From NCBI GenBank assembly GCA_002705605.1, contig PAJD01000006.1, forward strand, positions 57,238 to 70,090: a stretch of DNA of 12,853 bases. The letters run 5' to 3'. Position 1 is the stretch's first letter. The number at the start of each line of letters is the position of its first letter. The notes under the pieces are model-generated. The model made no database searches. It saw only the letters and a program-made list of their open reading frames with translations, and had not been told where the DNA came from. This DNA is from Fidelibacterota bacterium. Lineage in GTDB: Bacteria > Fidelibacterota > Marinisomatia > SCGC-AAA003-L08 > D37C17. The translations under genes and the position numbers were made by a program. Positions 1 to 8,628 of this stretch are shown in pieces.

Positions 1-123
1 AATATAATTTTAGTCGTAAATCAAAATCCAACTGATTGTGAATTCTCAGATGCTGATTATAATAATGATTCTATTGTAAATATCCAGGATGTTATTTTAG
101 TGATAACTAATATTTTAAATTAA
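1..123 (+). CDS. C-terminal end of a dockerin-like-tailed exported protein (5' partial)
   Basis: Only the last 40 codons lie in the window, ending in TAA at 121-123. The visible sequence, including SDADYNNDSIVNIQDVILVI, is the second half of a dockerin type I-like pair of calcium-binding repeats: a D-x-N-x-D loop followed by an amphipathic helix ending NILN. Nearly the same ending occurs in the genes at 972-1979 and 2404-3384, so this is a third copy of the same C-terminal module in one operon. The catalytic or binding part of the protein lies upstream and cannot be judged. The next gene starts 2 nt after the stop, which indicates co-transcription. The module assignment is fairly safe; the protein's function is unknown. 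Confidence 0.75.
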   Translation, partial: NIILVVNQNPTDCEFSDADYNNDSIVNIQDVILVITNILN

Positions 124-125
124 AT

Positions 126-965
126 ATGAAATTTTATTTTTTAATAATATTGTTTTTGATGTTTTCTTGTGATTTGCCTAATGAAGCTGATGCAGATTGC
201 AGTGGTATTAATATGGGTTCAGCCTTTATTGATGATTGTGGAAGATGTGTTGGTGAATCTTCAGGTTTTATTGAGGGTCATGATAAAGATGATTGTGGCG
301 TTTGCTATGGTGATAATTCTTGCTTAGATGGTCTATGTGTTGATGCTAATGCTATAAATTATCATTCAGAATTACCAGATAATGCTATAGCTGATAATTC
401 TTTATGTATTTATGATGTTTGTCAAACATTGCCATCAAATGATGACTATACTTGTAGTGAAAATGATGTTAATTATCCTTATCAAATAGGAGATCAGCTT
501 AATTGTAATGATTTAGAAATTTCTTTAAATATTTGTTTCCCAGATAATTGTGACAATACGGTGACACTTGGTGATTATTATGGAAAAGTAATTTGGTTTG
601 AGATGACAAGTTCATGGTGAGGGACCTGCGTTTCTCATTTGCCGGGAGCAGATGCATTTATAGCAGAATATTTAGACAATCCAAATTTTGCAGCAATAAC
701 AGCTTTAATGGATGTTGGTCAACCTCATTCTTGTAGTGCATGGGGTAACTTTGGAAATAATAAATTACCTCTTTTAATTGATGGTGGTTCTTCTCTAACT
801 TTCGGTAACCAAAATGGTTTAGAAAGTTTGTTTTTTACAGAAGCTCAAATACCAAAAAGGGTATTTATCGATCATGAAATGAGAGTGTATGATATTGTTG
901 CTGGATATATGAGCCAATCTGAGATAAAATTGAAAATTGATGAAATGTTAAGTTTAATGGAATAA
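126..965 (+). CDS. TlpA/ResA-like thioredoxin-fold selenoprotein, predicted lipoprotein, with in-frame UGA (Sec165)
   Basis: A 279-residue protein read through an in-frame TGA at 618-620. The N-terminus is a lipoprotein-like signal, MKFYFLIILFLMFSC, with acylation likely at Cys15. Residues about 23-100 are a Cys/Asp-rich linker with DDCGRC and DDCGVC repeats and a YHSELPDNAIADNSLC segment of a type common in exported proteins of this style. A redoxin domain follows: YPYQIGDQL, then LGDYYGKVIWFEMTSSW, the usual approach to a WCxxC active site. The TGA sits at the first Cys position, giving U165-G-T-C168. Cys203 (QPHSCSAWGN) and a likely cis-Pro243 (IPKRVFIDH) are shared with the paralogue at 2404-3384. 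Without readthrough the first piece ends at the active site and the second has only a weak TTG start with no ribosome binding site. Likely role: extracytoplasmic thiol-disulfide or peroxide chemistry. The substrate is unknown. No clear Shine-Dalgarno precedes the ATG. Confidence 0.82.
618..654 (+). promoter_or_regulatory. Predicted bacterial SECIS element 1 (Sec UGA plus downstream hairpin)
   Basis: The UGA at 618-620 is followed by a 7-bp stem, CATTTGC at 636-642 pairing with GCAGATG at 648-654 with one U-G wobble. It closes a 5-nt loop, CGGGA, at 643-647. The loop begins 22 nt after the UGA and has G in its second position. Bacterial SECIS elements generally place a small G-containing apical loop about 16-37 nt after the Sec codon. 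An alternative pairing of CTGC (626-629) with GCAG (648-651) also exists. The segment is clearly more GC-rich than its surroundings. The fold was worked out by hand. Confidence 0.72.
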
Positions 966-971
966 TATTTT

Positions 972-1979
972 ATGTTTATTAGATTATTTATAATTATTAT
1001 ATCTTCTTTATTGTTAAGTGTTGATTATCAAACACAAATTCAGCCTATATTTGATAATAACTGTGGAGGTTGTCATTTATCAAATTCTGCTGGTGGTTTA
1101 AATTTATCTAATTATAATAACACCATGTCAAGTGGTGTAGTGATTGAAGGTAATGCTCAATCTAGTTCTTTATATGATAGAATTACAAGAGCAGAATCTG
1201 AGCCTGGAGATATGCCTCCATCTGGTTCTCTATCTCAATCAGATATAGATTTGATTGCTCAGTGGATAAATGAGGGCGCTTTATTTGAAGAAGCTTTAGA
1301 TGTAGAAGGATGTACTGACCCCAATGCTATTTCATGTGCTGAAGAAATAAATACTATTTATTTCCCAGAATGTTCAACATGTTCAGATTCAGAACCATGT
1401 ACAAATTATTATAATGAAAATGCTACAGTTGATAATGGTATGTGTATGTATAATGATGTTCCAAGTTATGATGAGTTTGTAATTTCATCAATTGAAGGTG
1501 GTTACAATGTTGATTGGAGTGGATTTTCACCCCCAGTAGACATTTTGCAATACACATTGCAAAGATGTTTAGATCCAGATGGAGATACTGATGGTGATGG
1601 TAGTTATGAATATGAGAATTGTACGATGCTTGTTCCTCCCATGTCATTTAATTTAAATGCAACTTATGATGATATAGATTCAGTTTTTGAGCTTGATGAT
1701 TATTATGCAAAGTATACACTTTATGTTCATTATCCTAATAATACATATTGGGGCTCAGCAAATGCTTATTATCTATTAGAAGCTGACTCTAGTCAATGTA
1801 TGGCTGGTGATGTAAGCGGAGACGGTGTTATTAATGTTGTTGATGTTATATCTTCAGTAAATCATATTATAGGTAATTCTGTATTAGAAGGAGATAGTTT
1901 TTGTGCAGCTGATTTAAATGGAGATGGTATTATCAATGTCACAGATATTATAAGTTTAATAAATATTATTTTATCGTAA
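972..1979 (+). CDS. Exported monohaem c-type cytochrome with dockerin-like C-terminus
   Basis: The 335-aa product begins with a signal peptide (MFIRLFIIIISSLLLSV). A class I cytochrome c-like domain of the planctomycete-type (PSCyt/CSD-like) follows: IQPIFDNNCGGCH gives the haem motif CxxCH at residues 31-35, and GDMPPSG supplies the probable distal Met81, then DIDLIAQWINEGA. Residues about 113-155 hold a Cys-rich GCTDPNA...NYYNENATVDNGMC module. Residues about 160-270 look like a beta-rich domain that I do not recognise. Residues 278-335 are two dockerin type I-like repeats (GDVSGDGVINVVDVI and DLNGDGIINVTDII). The gene starts 6 nt after the upstream selenoprotein, so the two are probably co-transcribed. 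It likely carries electrons outside the inner membrane, and the tail presumably binds calcium and attaches or targets the protein. The electron partner is unknown; the neighbouring selenoproteins are candidates. Confidence 0.82.
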   Translation: MFIRLFIIIISSLLLSVDYQTQIQPIFDNNCGGCHLSNSAGGLNLSNYNNTMSSGVVIEGNAQSSSLYDRITRAESEPGDMPPSGSLSQSDIDLIAQWINEGALFEEALDVEGCTDPNAISCAEEINTIYFPECSTCSDSEPCTNYYNENATVDNGMCMYNDVPSYDEFVISSIEGGYNVDWSGFSPPVDILQYTLQRCLDPDGDTDGDGSYEYENCTMLVPPMSFNLNATYDDIDSVFELDDYYAKYTLYVHYPNNTYWGSANAYYLLEADSSQCMAGDVSGDGVINVVDVISSVNHIIGNSVLEGDSFCAADLNGDGIINVTDIISLINIILS

Positions 1980-2001
1980 AATTAAAAAAAAGGAGAAATA
2001 A

Positions 2002-2187
2002 ATGAAGTGTGAAAATTGGAGTTGTTGGAAAGAATGTATAGAATTAGCTCTTAAAGTTGTATTCGTAGGAGTTTTTACATGGGGTGTAATGAGTGCGGTT
2101 TGTTGTATGAGTTCTTGTGGCTCAAAGGCTTCTTGTTGTAAGACAACAGCTGTTGAAGCTGGAAAACCATGTAGTTCTGGTAAATAA
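2002..2187 (+). CDS. Small Cys-rich single-span membrane protein, unknown function
   Basis: A 61-aa protein with a strong ribosome binding site (AAAGGAG, about 7 nt before the ATG). Nine of its residues are Cys: 3, 8, 12, 34, 35, 39, 45, 46 and 57. An N-terminal CxxxxCxxxC cluster precedes one hydrophobic segment (about 15-35), and a Cys-rich tail follows (CCMSSCGSKASCCK). I recognise no family. The Cys density suggests metal binding or thiol exchange at the membrane. Its position between a cytochrome c and two thioredoxin-like selenoproteins makes it a possible redox partner or substrate. It is a real gene rather than chance: it has a good ribosome binding site, sits in an operon position, and its neighbour at 2205 has the same character. 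Confidence 0.75.
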   Translation: MKCENWSCWKECIELALKVVFVGVFTWGVMSAVCCMSSCGSKASCCKTTAVEAGKPCSSGK

Positions 2188-2204
2188 AAAATAAAGGAGA
2201 CTTT

Positions 2205-2399
2205 ATGAAAAAATATTTTTTATCATTAGTATTGATTTTTAGTATGGGTTTATTTTTTAGTTCTTGCTCAACATCCTGTTTAAGTGGTTGTTCTACTTCT
2301 TCTTGTTCTAAAACAAGTTGTTGTAGTAAAGATGCAAAAGCATGTGATAAAGAGTGTTCGAAGTCATGTTGTTCTAAAGAGGATAAGAAAGAAGGTTAG
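2205..2399 (+). CDS. Small Cys-rich predicted lipoprotein, unknown function
   Basis: A 64-aa protein preceded by AAAGGAG about 7 nt before its ATG. The N-terminus MKKYFLSLVLIFSMGLFFSSC is a typical signal, with lipidation likely at Cys21. The mature part is about 44 residues, almost all Ser, Cys, Lys, Thr, Asp and Glu. It has Cys at 21, 25, 29, 34, 39, 40, 47, 51, 55 and 56, including two CC pairs and CxxxC spacings, which recalls metallothionein-like sequences. No known family was recognised. Its stop is 4 nt before the second selenoprotein's ATG, so the two are surely co-transcribed. Possible roles, all inferred, are metal sequestration, a thiol buffer, or a disulfide substrate of the adjacent selenoproteins. 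Confidence 0.77.
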   Translation: MKKYFLSLVLIFSMGLFFSSCSTSCLSGCSTSSCSKTSCCSKDAKACDKECSKSCCSKEDKKEG

Positions 2400-2403
2400 G
2401 TTT

Positions 2404-3384
2404 ATGTTTAGATTATTATATGTGATTATTTTCTTTTCATTTTCATTTAACTATGGTGTTGGTGATATTGTATCAGTTTCTGACCAAAATGTAGTAAAAG
2501 AAACGTGTTATCCAGGAAATGGATATGATGTTGGTGATGATTGGAAATTAGCTGATTGGAATGGTTCATTAAATGGTGGAGATTATAATGTTATTTTCAT
2601 TGATATGTCAGCTACTTGGTGACCTGGATGTTATCAGGCACTATCAGGCCCGGCGGGCGAAGTGCACCATAATTTTGAAGATAATGATTATGTTAAGTTT
2701 TTAGGAGCTCTATCTGATTTAAATCAACCATATTCTTGTACTCAATGGGGTAATACTCCTGATGGCGGATATTCTCAAATAGTTCATGATACAAGTTCTG
2801 GTATATATAATATGTTTGGTAATGGCTATGTGCCAATGACTGTATGGCTTGATCATAATATGAGAGTTTTTGATGCTATGAATTCTGCGGGTAGTTGGTC
2901 AATATCTTCTAGAATTAATGAAATGTTAGAAAGTTGTGGAGAGTGTAATATTGATGGAACAGTAATTGAGGATTTAAGCTCAAATAATGATTCTTATCAA
3001 GGATATTGTTGTGAAGAATTTGGTGGTACTTATTATGAATTTAGCGATAGCGCAGATAATTATTGTCAAGGTTCTGATGCAACATGGGTATCTTTATGTT
3101 CCTCTTGTACAGGTACAACAGATACTGATAATGATGGATTAGCTGATGAGTGTGATGATTGTCTTAATATGCTTGGTGATGTCAATGATGATATGATGAT
3201 TGATGTTTTAGATTTAGTAAGTGTAGTTAATATTATACTAGCAGTAACAACTGATGCTTCTGAATGTATGTTGACTGATTCTGATTTGAATAATGATGAT
3301 ATTATTAATATTCAAGATATTATTCTGATTATTAATTCAATTTTGAATGTTCAAATTGATTTTAATAAATATCAAATTGACTAA
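2404..3384 (+). CDS. Exported thioredoxin-fold selenoprotein with dockerin-like C-terminus, in-frame UGA (Sec73)
   Basis: A 326-residue protein read through TGA at 2620-2622. The start ATG at 2404 lies 4 nt after the preceding stop and is followed by a signal peptide (MFRLLYVIIFFSFSFNYG). A longer open frame from 2284 would overlap the Cys-rich gene and is rejected. Residues about 40-72 approach the active site (DYNVIFIDMSATW), and the TGA gives U73-P-G-C76, a Sec version of WCPGC. Downstream, QPYSCTQWGN (Cys112) and YVPMTVWLDHNMRV (probable cis-Pro144) match the paralogue at 126-965. Residues about 240-252 resemble a thrombospondin type 3 calcium repeat (DTDNDGLADECDDC). Residues about 258-316 form two dockerin-like repeats. 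Likely role: secreted or surface thiol or peroxide reduction. It is the last gene before a strong terminator. Selenocysteine insertion is inferred from sequence only. Confidence 0.85.
2620..2665 (+). promoter_or_regulatory. Predicted bacterial SECIS element 2 (Sec UGA plus downstream hairpin)
   Basis: After the UGA at 2620-2622, GCACT (2638-2642) pairs perfectly with AGTGC (2661-2665). Across an asymmetric internal loop, GCCC (2648-2651) pairs with GGGC (2655-2658) around a GGC loop (2652-2654). The apical loop begins 29 nt after the UGA and starts with G, within the normal bacterial SECIS geometry. The run 2647-2659 is almost pure G/C inside a strongly AT-rich gene, as expected if RNA structure rather than protein alone constrains it. 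The fold was worked out by hand. Confidence 0.77.
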
Positions 3385-3414
3385 TAAAATTTTATTTTCA
3401 TTATTTTATAATTT

Positions 3415-3442
3415 AAAAGGGACTCTTGTAGTCCCTTTTTTT
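3415..3442 (+). terminator. Intrinsic terminator closing the selenoprotein operon
   Basis: AAAAGGGACT (3415-3424) pairs with AGTCCCTTTT (3430-3439) around the loop CTTGT, and the T-tract runs to 3442. It is a perfect stem with a GC-rich core and a U-run, 30 nt after the stop codon at 3384. It ends only 4 nt before the ATG of the next gene, so it separates that gene from the upstream operon or could act as a leader attenuator. Confidence 0.9.
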
Positions 3443-3446
3443 ATAT

Positions 3447-4526
3447 ATGAATAATAAGTTTAACATATCAATTATAGGGGCGGGTATTATCGGTCTTTCA
3501 ATTGCTGAAAGATTAAGTAAAAAGTATAAAAATATAATTCTGTTTGATAAAGAATCAACCTTTGGCCAACATGTTTCAAGTAGAAATAGTGAGGTTATTC
3601 ATTCAGGATTTTATTATCCTCTAAATTCACTTAAATCAAAATTTTGTATTGATGGAAACAGTAGGATGTATAGTTTCTCAGATAAATACAATATTAATTA
3701 TAATAAGTGTGGTAAAATGATTATTATAAATAATATGAATGAGGAGGAAGAGCTTTATACTATCTATAATAATGCTAAAGAATGTGGTTTGTCTGGATTG
3801 AAAATTTTAAATCAGAAACAAGCAAAAAAAATAGAGGAGAGAGTTCGATGTGTAAAGGCTTTATGGATTCCTTCTACTGGAATTATTGATTCACATGGAG
3901 TAATGTCAAAATTAGAAAATTTATCAATACTAAATGGAGTTGATTTTGCTTATAACTATTCTTTAAATAATATAGCCTTTCATAAAGGTTTATATGAATT
4001 ATCATTTAATAATAATGAATTAATTTATTCAGATATCGTTATTAATGCCGCTGGTCTTTGGAGTAACAATATTTCTAGAATGTTAAATGTGAATAGTTAT
4101 GATATTGAATATTTTAAGGGTGATTATTATAAATCAAATCTTAAAAATCTAAATTGTTTAATATATCCATTGCCTAAACAGACATCTTTAGGAATGCATA
4201 CTGTCTTATCTTTAAATGGTGATGTTTCATTTGGACCTAATTATTATAAAGTTAATAATATTGATTATTCGATTGATAATAGATATAAAGAAGAATATCT
4301 TAATTGCTTTAAAGAACTATTAGATGATAATAGTTTGAAATTAACTCCTGATTTTTCTGGAATAAGACCAAAGATTAAAAATAATGGAAATTTTAGTGAT
4401 TTTATTATTAAGAATGAAAAAGATCAAGGATTTAATAATTTTATTAATTTGATAGGCATAGACTCTCCTGGTTTAACATCTAGCTTGTCTATAGCAAAAT
4501 ATGTTGAAAATTTAATTGATTATTGA
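3447..4526 (+). CDS. FAD-dependent oxidoreductase, L-2-hydroxyglutarate oxidase (LhgO)-like
   Basis: A 359-aa protein of the D-amino-acid-oxidase fold. The FAD-binding dinucleotide motif IIGAGIIGLSIAERL starts at residue 9, with the ribose-binding acidic residue in LFDKE (about 34). SSRNSEVIHSGFYYP (44-58) is the segment typical of L-2-hydroxyglutarate oxidases and related dehydrogenases, NAAGLWS (200-206) is the second FAD motif, and GMHTVLSLNGDVSFGPNYY matches the family's substrate-domain stretch. It is somewhat shorter than usual for the family (about 390-420). The likely reaction is FAD-linked oxidation of an L-2-hydroxyacid, probably L-2-hydroxyglutarate to 2-oxoglutarate, passing electrons to oxygen or the quinone pool; exact substrate not provable here. 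The ATG is 5 nt from the upstream terminator's T-tract with no Shine-Dalgarno, so translation may start from a leaderless message. It converges on the hydrolase at 4520-5323. Confidence 0.85.
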   Translation: MNNKFNISIIGAGIIGLSIAERLSKKYKNIILFDKESTFGQHVSSRNSEVIHSGFYYPLNSLKSKFCIDGNSRMYSFSDKYNINYNKCGKMIIINNMNEEEELYTIYNNAKECGLSGLKILNQKQAKKIEERVRCVKALWIPSTGIIDSHGVMSKLENLSILNGVDFAYNYSLNNIAFHKGLYELSFNNNELIYSDIVINAAGLWSNNISRMLNVNSYDIEYFKGDYYKSNLKNLNCLIYPLPKQTSLGMHTVLSLNGDVSFGPNYYKVNNIDYSIDNRYKEEYLNCFKELLDDNSLKLTPDFSGIRPKIKNNGNFSDFIIKNEKDQGFNNFINLIGIDSPGLTSSLSIAKYVENLIDY

Positions 4527-5323
4527 TTTAGATAGTCTAATATTATTTTGGATATCTTTTTAGGAATTTCAAGTGGAAATAGATGGGAACATTCATCTAT
4601 AGTTTTAATTTCAATATTTTTATTATTGATCCTGTTTATCTTTTTTTCTGCTGATTCAAAAAATGTATTAGACTCTTTGGCTCTGATTATTAGAGTTGGA
4701 ATTTCGATGTTCTTAATATTTTTCCATATATAATTATCTTCGCTAATTCCAGTTTTATATATTTTATATTCCCATTTTTTAGGGAATGTTATATTTAATG
4801 ATTTATCTTTATTTATTTTGGTTATAGAATTTATATAAATTTTTAAATTTTCATCATTAATATATTTAAATACATTTTTTTTTCTATATGATTTAAATAT
4901 TGAATCATAGCTATCATAGGTCATTTTCCTATTAAGAGTTTTTTTTGATAGAGGATGAAAGTAATCATCTAATCTTGTAAGTCTTATCAATTTCCAAAAT
5001 AGGATAAATCGTGGAATAAATAAGGTTGGGTCTAATAGTATTATTTGAGAAAATAAATTTGGATGGCTAATTGCTGATCTTAAAATTAAATTGCCACCTA
5101 TAGAATGCCCAATACCTATGTTTTTTTGATTTTTTTTTACACTATTAATAAAGTTTTTATGGAATGGCTCCCAATTTTTTAAATTATTTATATCAATATT
5201 ATTAGAAACTAAATTAAAGTGATTAATATAATATGTTTTTTGTATTTTTGTAAATAATGATGAATATGCGTTTGAAGGATATCCATTAGCATGAATAAAA
5301 TAGATGTTTTTTTTATTTATCAT
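4520..5323 (-). CDS. Alpha/beta hydrolase, substrate unknown
   Basis: The only minus-strand gene; 267 aa. It shows the alpha/beta-hydrolase hallmarks: an N-terminal HANGYPSNAYSSLF (residues 11-24) resembling the oxyanion-hole HG region, the nucleophile elbow GIGHSIGG with Ser74, ILLDPTLF after the next strand, and a probable catalytic His247 in DECSHLFPLE. The acid residue is probably in the IIRAKESNTFF segment, but which one is uncertain. No signal peptide or membrane span is seen, so it is probably cytoplasmic. Lys, Asn and Ile are very frequent even for this AT-rich window. Its stop overlaps the end of the convergent FAD oxidoreductase gene by 7 nt, with no terminator between them. No ribosome binding site is evident. 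An esterase or lipase-like role is likely; nothing narrower can be claimed. Confidence 0.85.
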   Translation of the reverse strand: MINKKNIYFIHANGYPSNAYSSLFTKIQKTYYINHFNLVSNNIDINNLKNWEPFHKNFINSVKKNQKNIGIGHSIGGNLILRSAISHPNLFSQIILLDPTLFIPRFILFWKLIRLTRLDDYFHPLSKKTLNRKMTYDSYDSIFKSYRKKNVFKYINDENLKIYINSITKINKDKSLNITFPKKWEYKIYKTGISEDNYIWKNIKNIEIPTLIIRAKESNTFFESAEKKINRINNKNIEIKTIDECSHLFPLEIPKKISKIILDYLNQ

Positions 5324-5407
5324 TAATTATTATTAAAATTTTTATTAAACTAATTTTATAAGTTATGAAATGCTAATTAAATTATACCTATAGTTTTTAT
5401 TCAATTT

Positions 5408-5481
5408 GCACCCGTAGCTCAACTGGATAGAGCACTTGACTACGGATCAAGAGGTTGTAGGTTCGAATCCTACCGGGTGTA
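5408..5481 (+). tRNA. tRNA-Arg (anticodon ACG)
   Basis: A complete 74-nt cloverleaf. Acceptor arm GCACCCG (5408-5414) pairs with CGGGTGT (5474-5480), with a G-U first pair. The D arm is GCTC/GAGC, the anticodon stem CTTGA/TCAAG (5435-5439/5447-5451), the anticodon loop CTACGGA, and the T arm GTAGG/CCTAC around TTCGAAT. The anticodon ACG at 5442-5444 predicts tRNA-Arg for CGN codons after A34 is changed to inosine. The discriminator base is A5481 and no CCA is encoded. It lies just upstream of, and on the same strand as, the SRPBCC gene, so the two may share a transcript. Confidence 0.95.
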
Positions 5482-5498
5482 CAAAAGGAGAATGAGTA

Positions 5499-5951
5499 GT
5501 GAAAGTATATACATTAAAATCTAAGCAAAAGATAAATAAAAGTTTGAAAGAAGTTTTTGATTTTTTTAAAAGTCCAGAAAATCTTTCTAAATTGACACCT
5601 TCTAAGTTAAATTTTAAAATATTAACACCAACACCTATTGAAATGAAAAATGGTCAATTAATTGATTATACAATAAATATATTGGGTTTTAGAGTACATT
5701 GGCGTACAATGATTACTTCTTATTTAGAACCTCATGAATTTGTTGATCAACAGTTGATTGGTCCTTATTCAATGTGGCATCATAAACATACCTTTGAAGA
5801 TAAAGGTGATTATGTTGAGATGAATGATGAGGTTAATTATGTTATTCCTTTTGGTGTATTTGGAAGAATAGCTCACTATTTGTATGTAAAAAAAGAACTT
5901 GAAGGTATTTTTTTGTATAGAACTAAAATTATAGATAAAGTATTTAAATAA
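5499..5951 (+). CDS. SRPBCC-family ligand-binding protein
   Basis: A 150-aa cytoplasmic protein. The GTG start is chosen because AAAGGAG ends about 8 nt upstream and the nearby ATG at 5492 meets a stop after two codons. The N-terminus KSKQKINKSLKEVFDFFKSPENLSKLTP is the classic opening of the SRPBCC (START/polyketide-cyclase-like) fold. The middle has ITSYLEPHEFVDQQLIGPYSMWHHKHTFE, with conserved aromatic and His residues, and the C-terminal helix contains IAHYLYVKKELEGIFLYR. Such small proteins are often encoded next to NAD-dependent epimerase-like proteins, as here (the next gene begins 11 nt later). They bind a hydrophobic ligand in an internal cavity; the ligand is unknown. Family assignment is firm; function is not. 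Confidence 0.85.
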   Translation: MKVYTLKSKQKINKSLKEVFDFFKSPENLSKLTPSKLNFKILTPTPIEMKNGQLIDYTINILGFRVHWRTMITSYLEPHEFVDQQLIGPYSMWHHKHTFEDKGDYVEMNDEVNYVIPFGVFGRIAHYLYVKKELEGIFLYRTKIIDKVFK

Positions 5952-8049: not shown

Positions 8050-8628
8050 ATGATAAAGTATTTTGTAGTATTTGCATGTGTTTTTTTATTGATAGGGTTT
8101 GTTTTCCCCTTTTTTTTTAAGAATGAGAAGGTAAATATAGATGGTTTATCTAATAGCTTTTATGATTATTCTGTTGAATTGATAAGTGGTGAAAAAATAG
8201 CACTTAATAAATATAAAGATAAAAAGGTAATTATTGTAAATGTAGCTTCAAAATGTGGTTACACTTATCAATATGGTGGATTACAAAAATTATATGATGA
8301 ATATGGTGACAAAATAGAAATAATTGGATTTCCTTCTAATGAGTTCTTATTTCAAGAGCCAGGAGAAAATAAAGATATTCAAACTTTTTGTAGCTCTAAT
8401 TATGGAGTAAAATTTCCAATAGTAAAGAAAACAGTTGTTAAAAAAAATAGTAATCAACATCCCTTGTATTCATGGTTATCATGTAAAGAATTAAATGGAT
8501 GGAATGATTCTCCTCCGAGTTGGAATTTTTATAAATATTTAATTGACGAAGAAGGAGTGCTAGTTAATGTACTTTCTTCTAAAATTAAACCCCAAGATAA
8601 AGAGATAATTGATTTTATTAATAATTAA
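8050..8628 (+). CDS. Glutathione peroxidase-family peroxidase, Cys type, membrane-anchored
   Basis: A 192-aa protein with ribosome binding site AAGGAG. It is about 30 residues longer than typical bacterial enzymes because of an N-terminal hydrophobic anchor (residues 1-23), so it likely acts outside the inner membrane. The catalytic motif NVASKCGYTYQYGGLQ places Cys69 where animal enzymes have selenocysteine. GFPSNEFLFQEPG supplies Gln102, and W158-N159 (PSWNFYKYL) complete the catalytic tetrad. Cys114 in the helix after the QEPG motif is the likely resolving Cys, implying thioredoxin-type rather than glutathione recycling. It reduces hydrogen or lipid peroxides. GFPSNEF carries Ser where many homologues have Cys. 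It is the last gene of the lipid-related cluster, and its stop abuts the TonB receptor start. Confidence 0.92.
   Translation: MIKYFVVFACVFLLIGFVFPFFFKNEKVNIDGLSNSFYDYSVELISGEKIALNKYKDKKVIIVNVASKCGYTYQYGGLQKLYDEYGDKIEIIGFPSNEFLFQEPGENKDIQTFCSSNYGVKFPIVKKTVVKKNSNQHPLYSWLSCKELNGWNDSPPSWNFYKYLIDEEGVLVNVLSSKIKPQDKEIIDFINN

Follow-up and report, generated by a model that had tools for sequence, protein, structure and literature searches.

Does the in-frame TGA at positions 2620-2622 of a Fidelibacterota sequence end a short gene, or does it encode selenocysteine (Sec, U) within a longer one? The sequence, called the window here, is the whole stretch of 12,853 nucleotides that was analysed (G000:C12:57238-70090). 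It comes from a metagenome-assembled genome (MAG) of 1.64 Mb and 92% completeness belonging to the phylum Fidelibacterota (Marinimicrobia/SAR406); the named relatives found are the MAGs SAT2619, MED764 and EAC649 (protein identity 78-84%) of Candidatus Neomarinimicrobiota, the phylum now named Fidelibacterota. The gene in question occupies 2404-3384 on the forward strand. Taking frame, Pfam matches, homologues, an AlphaFold model and selection together, it almost certainly encodes one secreted, Sec-containing redox enzyme of 326 residues with a dockerin-like tail, a member of a multi-copy family, and by every computational test run the TGA is a predicted selenocysteine codon. The joined frame, the exchange of Sec and Cys among relatives, a selenocysteine insertion sequence (SECIS) signal, the Sec machinery (with a caveat for selB), selection, fold and domain order are all supported by these sequence-based analyses, and Sec would accordingly be expected at residue 73.

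The reading frame across the TGA

The frame comprises 326 sense codons with a single in-frame TGA, at codon 73, and ends in TAA; the residues around the TGA read MSATW-U-PGC, placing it in a W-U-P-G-C motif. A first-pass annotation had proposed that this TGA stands for the first Cys of the active site, that the frame continues past it and that a standard gene caller would split the gene, and all three points were borne out. Translation table 11 indeed yields a 112-residue open reading frame (ORF) at 2284-2622, in the same frame, and a 240-residue ORF at 2662-3384. Fragments of 240-241 residues from this gene and from two close relatives (P0003-P0005) are present in the protein database, and the best database matches are fragments beginning past the TGA. 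Such a split, and the ambiguous bases that the MAG contains in parts, speak for a genuine stop, a sequencing or assembly error or a pseudogene, with two unrelated fragments on either side. We consider this extremely improbable, given the codons found at the same position in relatives, the selection acting beyond the TGA and the RNA hairpin signal described below.

Relatives were sought by protein in 20 genomes and by profile in 199 genomes of the phylum. The profile read TGA as Cys and is thus not neutral, being slightly biased toward Cys or TGA at the U73 column. Loci and stretches fetched after the protein, profile and database searches, the weaker protein-search matches in part, gave 112 distinct homologous DNA sites; at least one gene is doubled among them, as the TGA site L045 and L095:2442 apparently represent one gene of G011. 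At the U73 column, 88 sites have TGA, 18 have TGT and six have TGC, with no other codon at any site, so that Cys homologues account for 24 of the 112. The second active-site residue is encoded by a Cys codon at 109 of the 112 sites and by TGA at the remaining three (L077, L104 and L107), which therefore carry TGA at both active-site positions (UxxU). The profile search alone gave 98 matches in 47 genomes at E<=1e-25, 75 with an in-frame TGA, 23 with no stop and none with TAA or TAG. On a quick domain tree, Sec and Cys have changed places at least nine times, or six times if well-supported branches alone are counted. The source genome also has a 780-residue member (L138; frame at C20:23823-24395), in which a long region separates the Sec-thioredoxin from a dockerin at the C-terminus (C20:22116-22265); in its clade six proteins have Cys (from G006, G012, G134, G195, G199 and G204) and that of G008 has Sec.

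Selection beyond the TGA was estimated against the orthologue in locus L048, which is 84% identical and retains the TGA. Up to the TGA (codons 21-72), the ratio of non-synonymous to synonymous substitution rates (dN/dS) stands at 0.072; beyond it, the thioredoxin part has 0.056 and the stretch starting at codon 196 has 0.134. For a second Sec gene of the window, at 126-965, the values are 0.225 before and 0.132 after its TGA. Selection after the TGA is as strong as before it, which is the prediction of translation through the TGA.

The remaining reading of the frame is that TGA encodes tryptophan, by code 4 reassignment or by read-through. Its support comes from the protein database, where 20 of 93 matches were aligned in full and have Cys (nine), Trp (nine: P0006, P0013, P0016, P0022-P0025, P0027 and P0029) or a truncated sequence (two) at U73. 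The nine Trp residues weigh against a Sec codon; the first-pass annotation's expectation that homologues would carry nothing other than Cys or Sec here is borne out at all 112 DNA sites, with these database proteins as a blemish. We nevertheless regard tryptophan as very improbable: TGG occurs at none of the 112 sites, the gene itself uses seven TGG codons, and the genome possesses Sec machinery. Genome-wide reassignment of TGA was considered and rejected, as three predicted genes of the window end in TGA, which is still a stop; the other ORFs of the window, being called with table 11, are uninformative on this point through their lack of inner TGA codons. Code 4 can be applied by metagenome gene callers, and because TGG is absent from the homologous sites we infer that the database Trp residues are TGA codons translated in this way. 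A search of the open-access literature for code 4 together with selenocysteine found no paper. Trp exactly at a Sec position may be a general signature by which to find selenoproteins hidden in protein databases. Those entries of the family that were inspected are either truncated at the active site or show Cys or Trp at the Sec position, and the small number of names supplied by their sources are 'hypothetical protein' or unrelated; the Sec enzymes are therefore invisible to ordinary annotation.

The downstream hairpin and the selenocysteine machinery

A SECIS-like hairpin lies at 2638-2665 on the forward strand. Its apical loop, GGC (2652-2654), is 29 nt past the TGA, and the folded stretch has a predicted free energy of -14.2 kcal/mol. 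The 51 bases from the TGA onward have a G+C content of 59%, compared with 27.5% across the window. RNA tests were run on 87 of the 88 TGA sites (L045 was too short), with ambiguous bases in eight site records set to A for folding. Measured against protein-preserving shuffles, the segment from +12 to +51 folds more stably than expected in the 87 TGA genes (mean z -1.31) and shows no such excess in the Cys genes (+0.26, n=24); two windows further downstream show no excess stability in the TGA genes (mean z -0.05 and -0.15). The best small loop begins with G in 70 of the 87 TGA genes, being mostly GGC, GTT or GGT, and each of four loop registers shows changes of stem pairs with pairing preserved.

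A rule built on these four registers and a 3-nt loop fits 58 of the 87 TGA genes, 57 of them with G first in the loop, and two of the 24 Cys genes. After a shift of 40-100 nt, between 2 and 14 TGA genes fit. Because the rule missed 29 genes, we used the looser published model of the bacterial SECIS, which the accessible portion of a recent review gives as a 3-9 nt loop, a 4-16 bp upper stem, G in the first two loop positions, a distance of 16-37 nt from the UGA and a minimum free energy <= -7.5 (PMC13188914). Among the 87 TGA genes, 81 have the shape and 65 also satisfy the energy limit, taken over a 54-nt stretch; among the 24 Cys genes the counts are 8 and 5. In synonymous shuffles the shape, and the shape with the energy limit, arise in 44.5% and 23.3% of cases for TGA genes and 27.5% and 14.6% for Cys genes. 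All three Sec genes of the cluster around 2404-3384 fit the model, with -14.2 kcal/mol for 2404-3384, -11.9 for the second and -10.3 for the third, and 2404-3384 passes on distance, loop and energy alike. Several observations weigh on the other side: a model-fitting hairpin is missing from six of the 87 TGA genes and present in eight of the 24 Cys genes, and the stricter rule fits only 58 of 87 while still fitting 4-27 of 87 when slid by 1-4 nt. Searching Rfam with a limit of E=1 yielded nothing at the hairpins, and an inverted-repeat finder at its settings detected nothing.

The genome encodes a tRNA-Sec (65.8 bits, anticodon tca), SelA (368 bits, open frame) and a Sec-type SelD (357 bits) with an in-frame TGA of its own, in SSGAGUACK. 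The component that fits less well is selB, which adjoins selA (C34:37163-38990) and is broken up where the assembly has many ambiguous bases; it is open, with 619 residues, in three genomes of the same genus. The first-pass annotation had named these genes as the check on a Sec reading: tRNA-Sec, selA and selD are present, and selB is interrupted in this assembly. At E<=1e-66, selB is found in 137 of 199 genomes of the phylum. By a hand count, 34 of the 36 genomes with a TGA member of the family have it, compared with 103 of the other 163; the exceptions are the source genome itself (G000) and G115, in which selB was not found at this threshold, again a point against.

Five thioredoxin-type genes with TGA plus SelD make at least six predicted selenoproteins in the genome. 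Six is the published threshold for a selenoprotein-rich organism, according to the part of that study available (PMC5029168), and the genome therefore reaches it. Table 1 of the same 2016 study, as far as accessible, lists three SAR406 (Marinimicrobia) genomes with an 'orphan' SelD and no known selenium trait. In 34 or more of the 137 selB-bearing genomes of the phylum, the large selenoprotein family provides a use for the Sec machinery.

Fold, export and surface context

The AlphaFold model, Foldseek and VIA-align delimit a TlpA/ResA-like thioredoxin domain at residues about 20-179 (2461-2940), and a type I dockerin (PF00404) with two repeats resembling Ca-loops follows at residues 257-314 (3172-3345). 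The predicted product is a secreted UxxC oxidoreductase of TlpA/ResA fold with a dockerin tail. Foldseek places the model closest to extracytoplasmic thiol-disulfide oxidoreductases. Two results are less favourable: peroxiredoxins tie with ResA in the VIA-align ranking, for which the input was mainly residues 15-179, and a Pfam scan of the window protein (P0001) gave no thioredoxin or redoxin match over the cut-off. Within the family (n=31), Pfam matches at E<=0.01 are to AhpC-TSA (11), Redoxin (10) and Thioredoxin (9). Two residues had been put forward as conserved thioredoxin features. Cys112 is conserved in the family, together with Cys35 in 100 of 112 rows, and is not a feature of thioredoxins in general. 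Residue 144 is Pro throughout the 31-row alignment; in the 112 rows of the wider set it is Pro in 98 and Ser in 10.

The dockerin scores 22.4 bits in the whole protein, just under the cut-off of 22.9, but 25.7, above it, in the genome scan and 25.4 in the orthologue; phmmer matches of the tail to solved dockerins are weak (best E 0.0035). The N-terminus is hydrophobic and, judged by eye, resembles an export signal, so the protein is probably exported. The earlier description of a secreted thioredoxin with a dockerin-like tail therefore stands.

The genome contains 56 dockerin matches and two cohesin matches, each single, at C4:120191-120511 and C28:8791-9150 (L142 and L141); one has a type IX secretion system (T9SS) tail and the other is, by eye, a putative lipoprotein. 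A T9SS sorting domain (PF18962) was not found in P0001, a point against the reading preferred below. It is present in eight of nine Sec-thioredoxin proteins scanned in relatives, six of which carry a dockerin, and the SprA translocon of the T9SS is encoded in the genome (C15, over cut-off). A PDB profile search of the post-dockerin region of T9SS-tailed relatives, as a possible cis-fused cohesin, found no cohesin; hhalign of this region with the genome's own cohesin gave a probability of 61.8 and an E of 7.6e-5.

From these data, binding of the dockerin tail to a cohesin is plausible. The dockerin could instead be a calcium-stabilised spacer or sorting module with no cohesin partner, leaving the selenoprotein free in the periplasm or released, and we give this reading slightly less than an even chance. 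The ratio of 56 dockerins to two cohesins favours it, and so do the T9SS tails of relatives, many of which need no cohesin. Both cohesin proteins, however, look surface-anchored, and no T9SS tail was found in the dockerin proteins of this cluster.

The reading that we prefer, and hold to be highly probable from the sequence data, is that Sec is inserted at the UGA through the SECIS hairpin and the host machinery, and that the product is an exported thiol-disulfide oxidoreductase held at the surface by its dockerin. The hairpin, starting 15 nt downstream, would direct decoding of UGA codon 73 by tRNA-Sec, SelA, SelB and SelD of the host. The product would be exported and most likely exchange thiols and disulfides as an extracytoplasmic oxidoreductase, the U73 selenolate attacking a target disulfide and C76 resolving the intermediate. 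The dockerin may hold the protein at the cell surface through one of the two cohesin proteins, whereas many relatives would be attached directly by a T9SS sorting tail. Probable partners are an adjacent cytochrome c (or plastocyanin) dockerin protein and Cys-rich peptides. Surface anchoring, partners, substrates and reductase direction are all suggested by gene content and homology. Two points count against this scheme: no electron donor was identified, and the proposed cohesin docking is drawn from gene content.

The neighbouring genes, all on the forward strand, provide the suggested partners. The first-pass annotation had found the main Sec gene and overlooked two others. The second, at 126-965, encodes a Sec-thioredoxin of 279 residues (U165) with a Cys-rich N-terminal part and a W-U-G-T-C motif, by eye a putative lipoprotein; its TGA (618-620, in SSW-U-GTC) is also present in the orthologue at L048, and a SECIS-like hairpin of the published shape, with loop CGGGA 22 nt past the TGA, lies at 636-654. 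The third contributes its dockerin tail at 1-123, its TGA lying upstream of the window (L015:9401). Between the second gene and 2404-3384 are a fusion of cytochrome c (PSCyt1) and dockerin identified by Pfam (972-1979), a small Cys-rich protein (2002-2187), kept in position in L048, L049 and L092, and a small Cys-rich putative lipoprotein, again judged by eye (2205-2399), which L048 and L049 have at the same place; the two small proteins have no Pfam match. The order is thus Sec-thioredoxin-dockerin, Sec-thioredoxin lipoprotein, electron carrier-dockerin, Cys-rich peptide, Cys-rich lipoprotein and Sec-thioredoxin-dockerin, and it is shared with L048 and L049. For L049 the ORF script listed solely the post-TGA part of the second gene, and we mapped its TGA to L049:4221. 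At the position of 972-1979 the carrier varies, being cytochrome c in the window and a plastocyanin-type Copper-bind domain at L048:4578-5579 and L092:2732-3775, with the dockerin tail kept. Past the last Sec gene, at 3415-3439, a pattern match resembles the hairpin of an intrinsic terminator (four such sites in 1-5500, 1.6 expected). Upstream of the cluster are genes for a redoxin, a DUF6029 protein and a T9SS-tailed protein.

TlpA and ResA are reductases that act on the cysteines of proteins binding haem or copper. With reductases of this type next to a carrier that can be either a cytochrome or a cupredoxin, a role in handling extracellular haem or copper sites would fit. The alternative that the protein is an Etrx-like donor or peroxidase, a surface antioxidant linked to peroxide or methionine sulfoxide, seems rather unlikely to us. 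In its favour, the fold matches include chains of Etrx1/Etrx2 and PrxQ/AhpE, with PrxQ tied at the top, and a gene at 8050-8628 encodes a protein resembling glutathione peroxidase. No msr gene was found among the ORFs scanned, which include part of those in the window, and both the UxxC motif and the immediate neighbours, cytochrome c/plastocyanin and Cys-rich peptides, argue for the reductase. The protein of 8050-8628, near the Sec cluster, has Cys rather than Sec at what we take to be the usual catalytic site. A larger scheme, in which Sec-thioredoxins and swappable carriers, many with a dockerin, dock on outer-membrane cohesins with T9SS or lipid anchors to form a surface selenium-dependent redox apparatus like a cellulosome, is a speculative and doubtful extension.

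Comparison with known systems

The first-pass annotation knew of no description of a Sec-thioredoxin fused to calcium-binding anchoring modules, and none for a dockerin fusion was found in the literature searched, which excluded subscription papers and preprints. Within that scope we found no surface-targeted UxxC selenoprotein with dockerin or T9SS modules, and no paper on Marinimicrobia with dockerin or Neomarinimicrobiota with selenocysteine. Dockerin with selenoprotein returned a software paper on carbohydrate-active enzymes alone; T9SS or cohesin with selenoprotein returned unrelated papers. The word dockerin does not occur in the accessible main text of the Global Ocean Sampling (GOS) and Sargasso Sea papers (PMC2398784, PMC1088965), nor do Marinimicrobia, SAR406 or secreted in that of PMC13188914. 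As far as this search reaches, the catalytic kind is known, and the architecture, the lineage expansion and the surface context are new.

The 2026 review tabulates 119 prokaryotic selenoprotein families and subfamilies, including UxxC redoxin and TlpA-like ones (PMC13188914). The redoxin (PF08534, UxxC) and TlpA-like (cd02966, UxxC or UGC) entries of its Table 1 share with our protein the thioredoxin fold, UxxC, SECIS and Cys homologues. In the part of the table accessible, however, these two entries name no dockerin, T9SS or surface architecture, and no row lists a dockerin or surface-targeted thioredoxin. The Fidelibacterota lineage differs further in having multi-copy tandem sets, and the window protein in having no Pfam thioredoxin match. 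The ResA-like WAxxUGC family of NCBIfam, NF041054, is likewise a Sec/Cys family. It matches four of 31 members (best E 9.5e-6), for which ordinary thioredoxin/ResA models match better, and the window protein has no NCBIfam match at E<=0.1. The hypothetical selenoprotein GOS_C, in the accessible account (PMC2398784), is also marine, with a thioredoxin-like fold, UxxC and many Cys homologues; its model NF045500 is not among the NCBIfam matches of the 31 members, in a library not checked for that model, and the two families may overlap.

ResA, TlpA, Etrx and DsbE proteins (4nmu, 1su9, 1jfu, 4hqz, 3gl3) have the fold, the W-C-x-x-C site and export in common with the protein of 2404-3384, which differs in having Sec for the first Cys, a dockerin tail and a second conserved Cys pair (C35, C112). 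A distant parallel is provided by selenoprotein fusions from marine metagenomes, a deiodinase-like protein with an EF-hand and a Prx-like protein with DsbC (PMC9402790, as far as accessible), in which, again in marine microbes, a selenoprotein of thioredoxin-fold type is joined to a module that binds Ca or has a redox function; the module here is a dockerin, to which relatives often add a T9SS tail. Cellulosomal dockerin proteins share the C-terminal type I dockerin with duplicated Ca-loops, with a redox enzyme here in place of a glycosidase and two cohesin matches in the genome, each single. If surface docking is true, it would be a new use for cohesin-dockerin pairs and would place selenium chemistry outside the cell.
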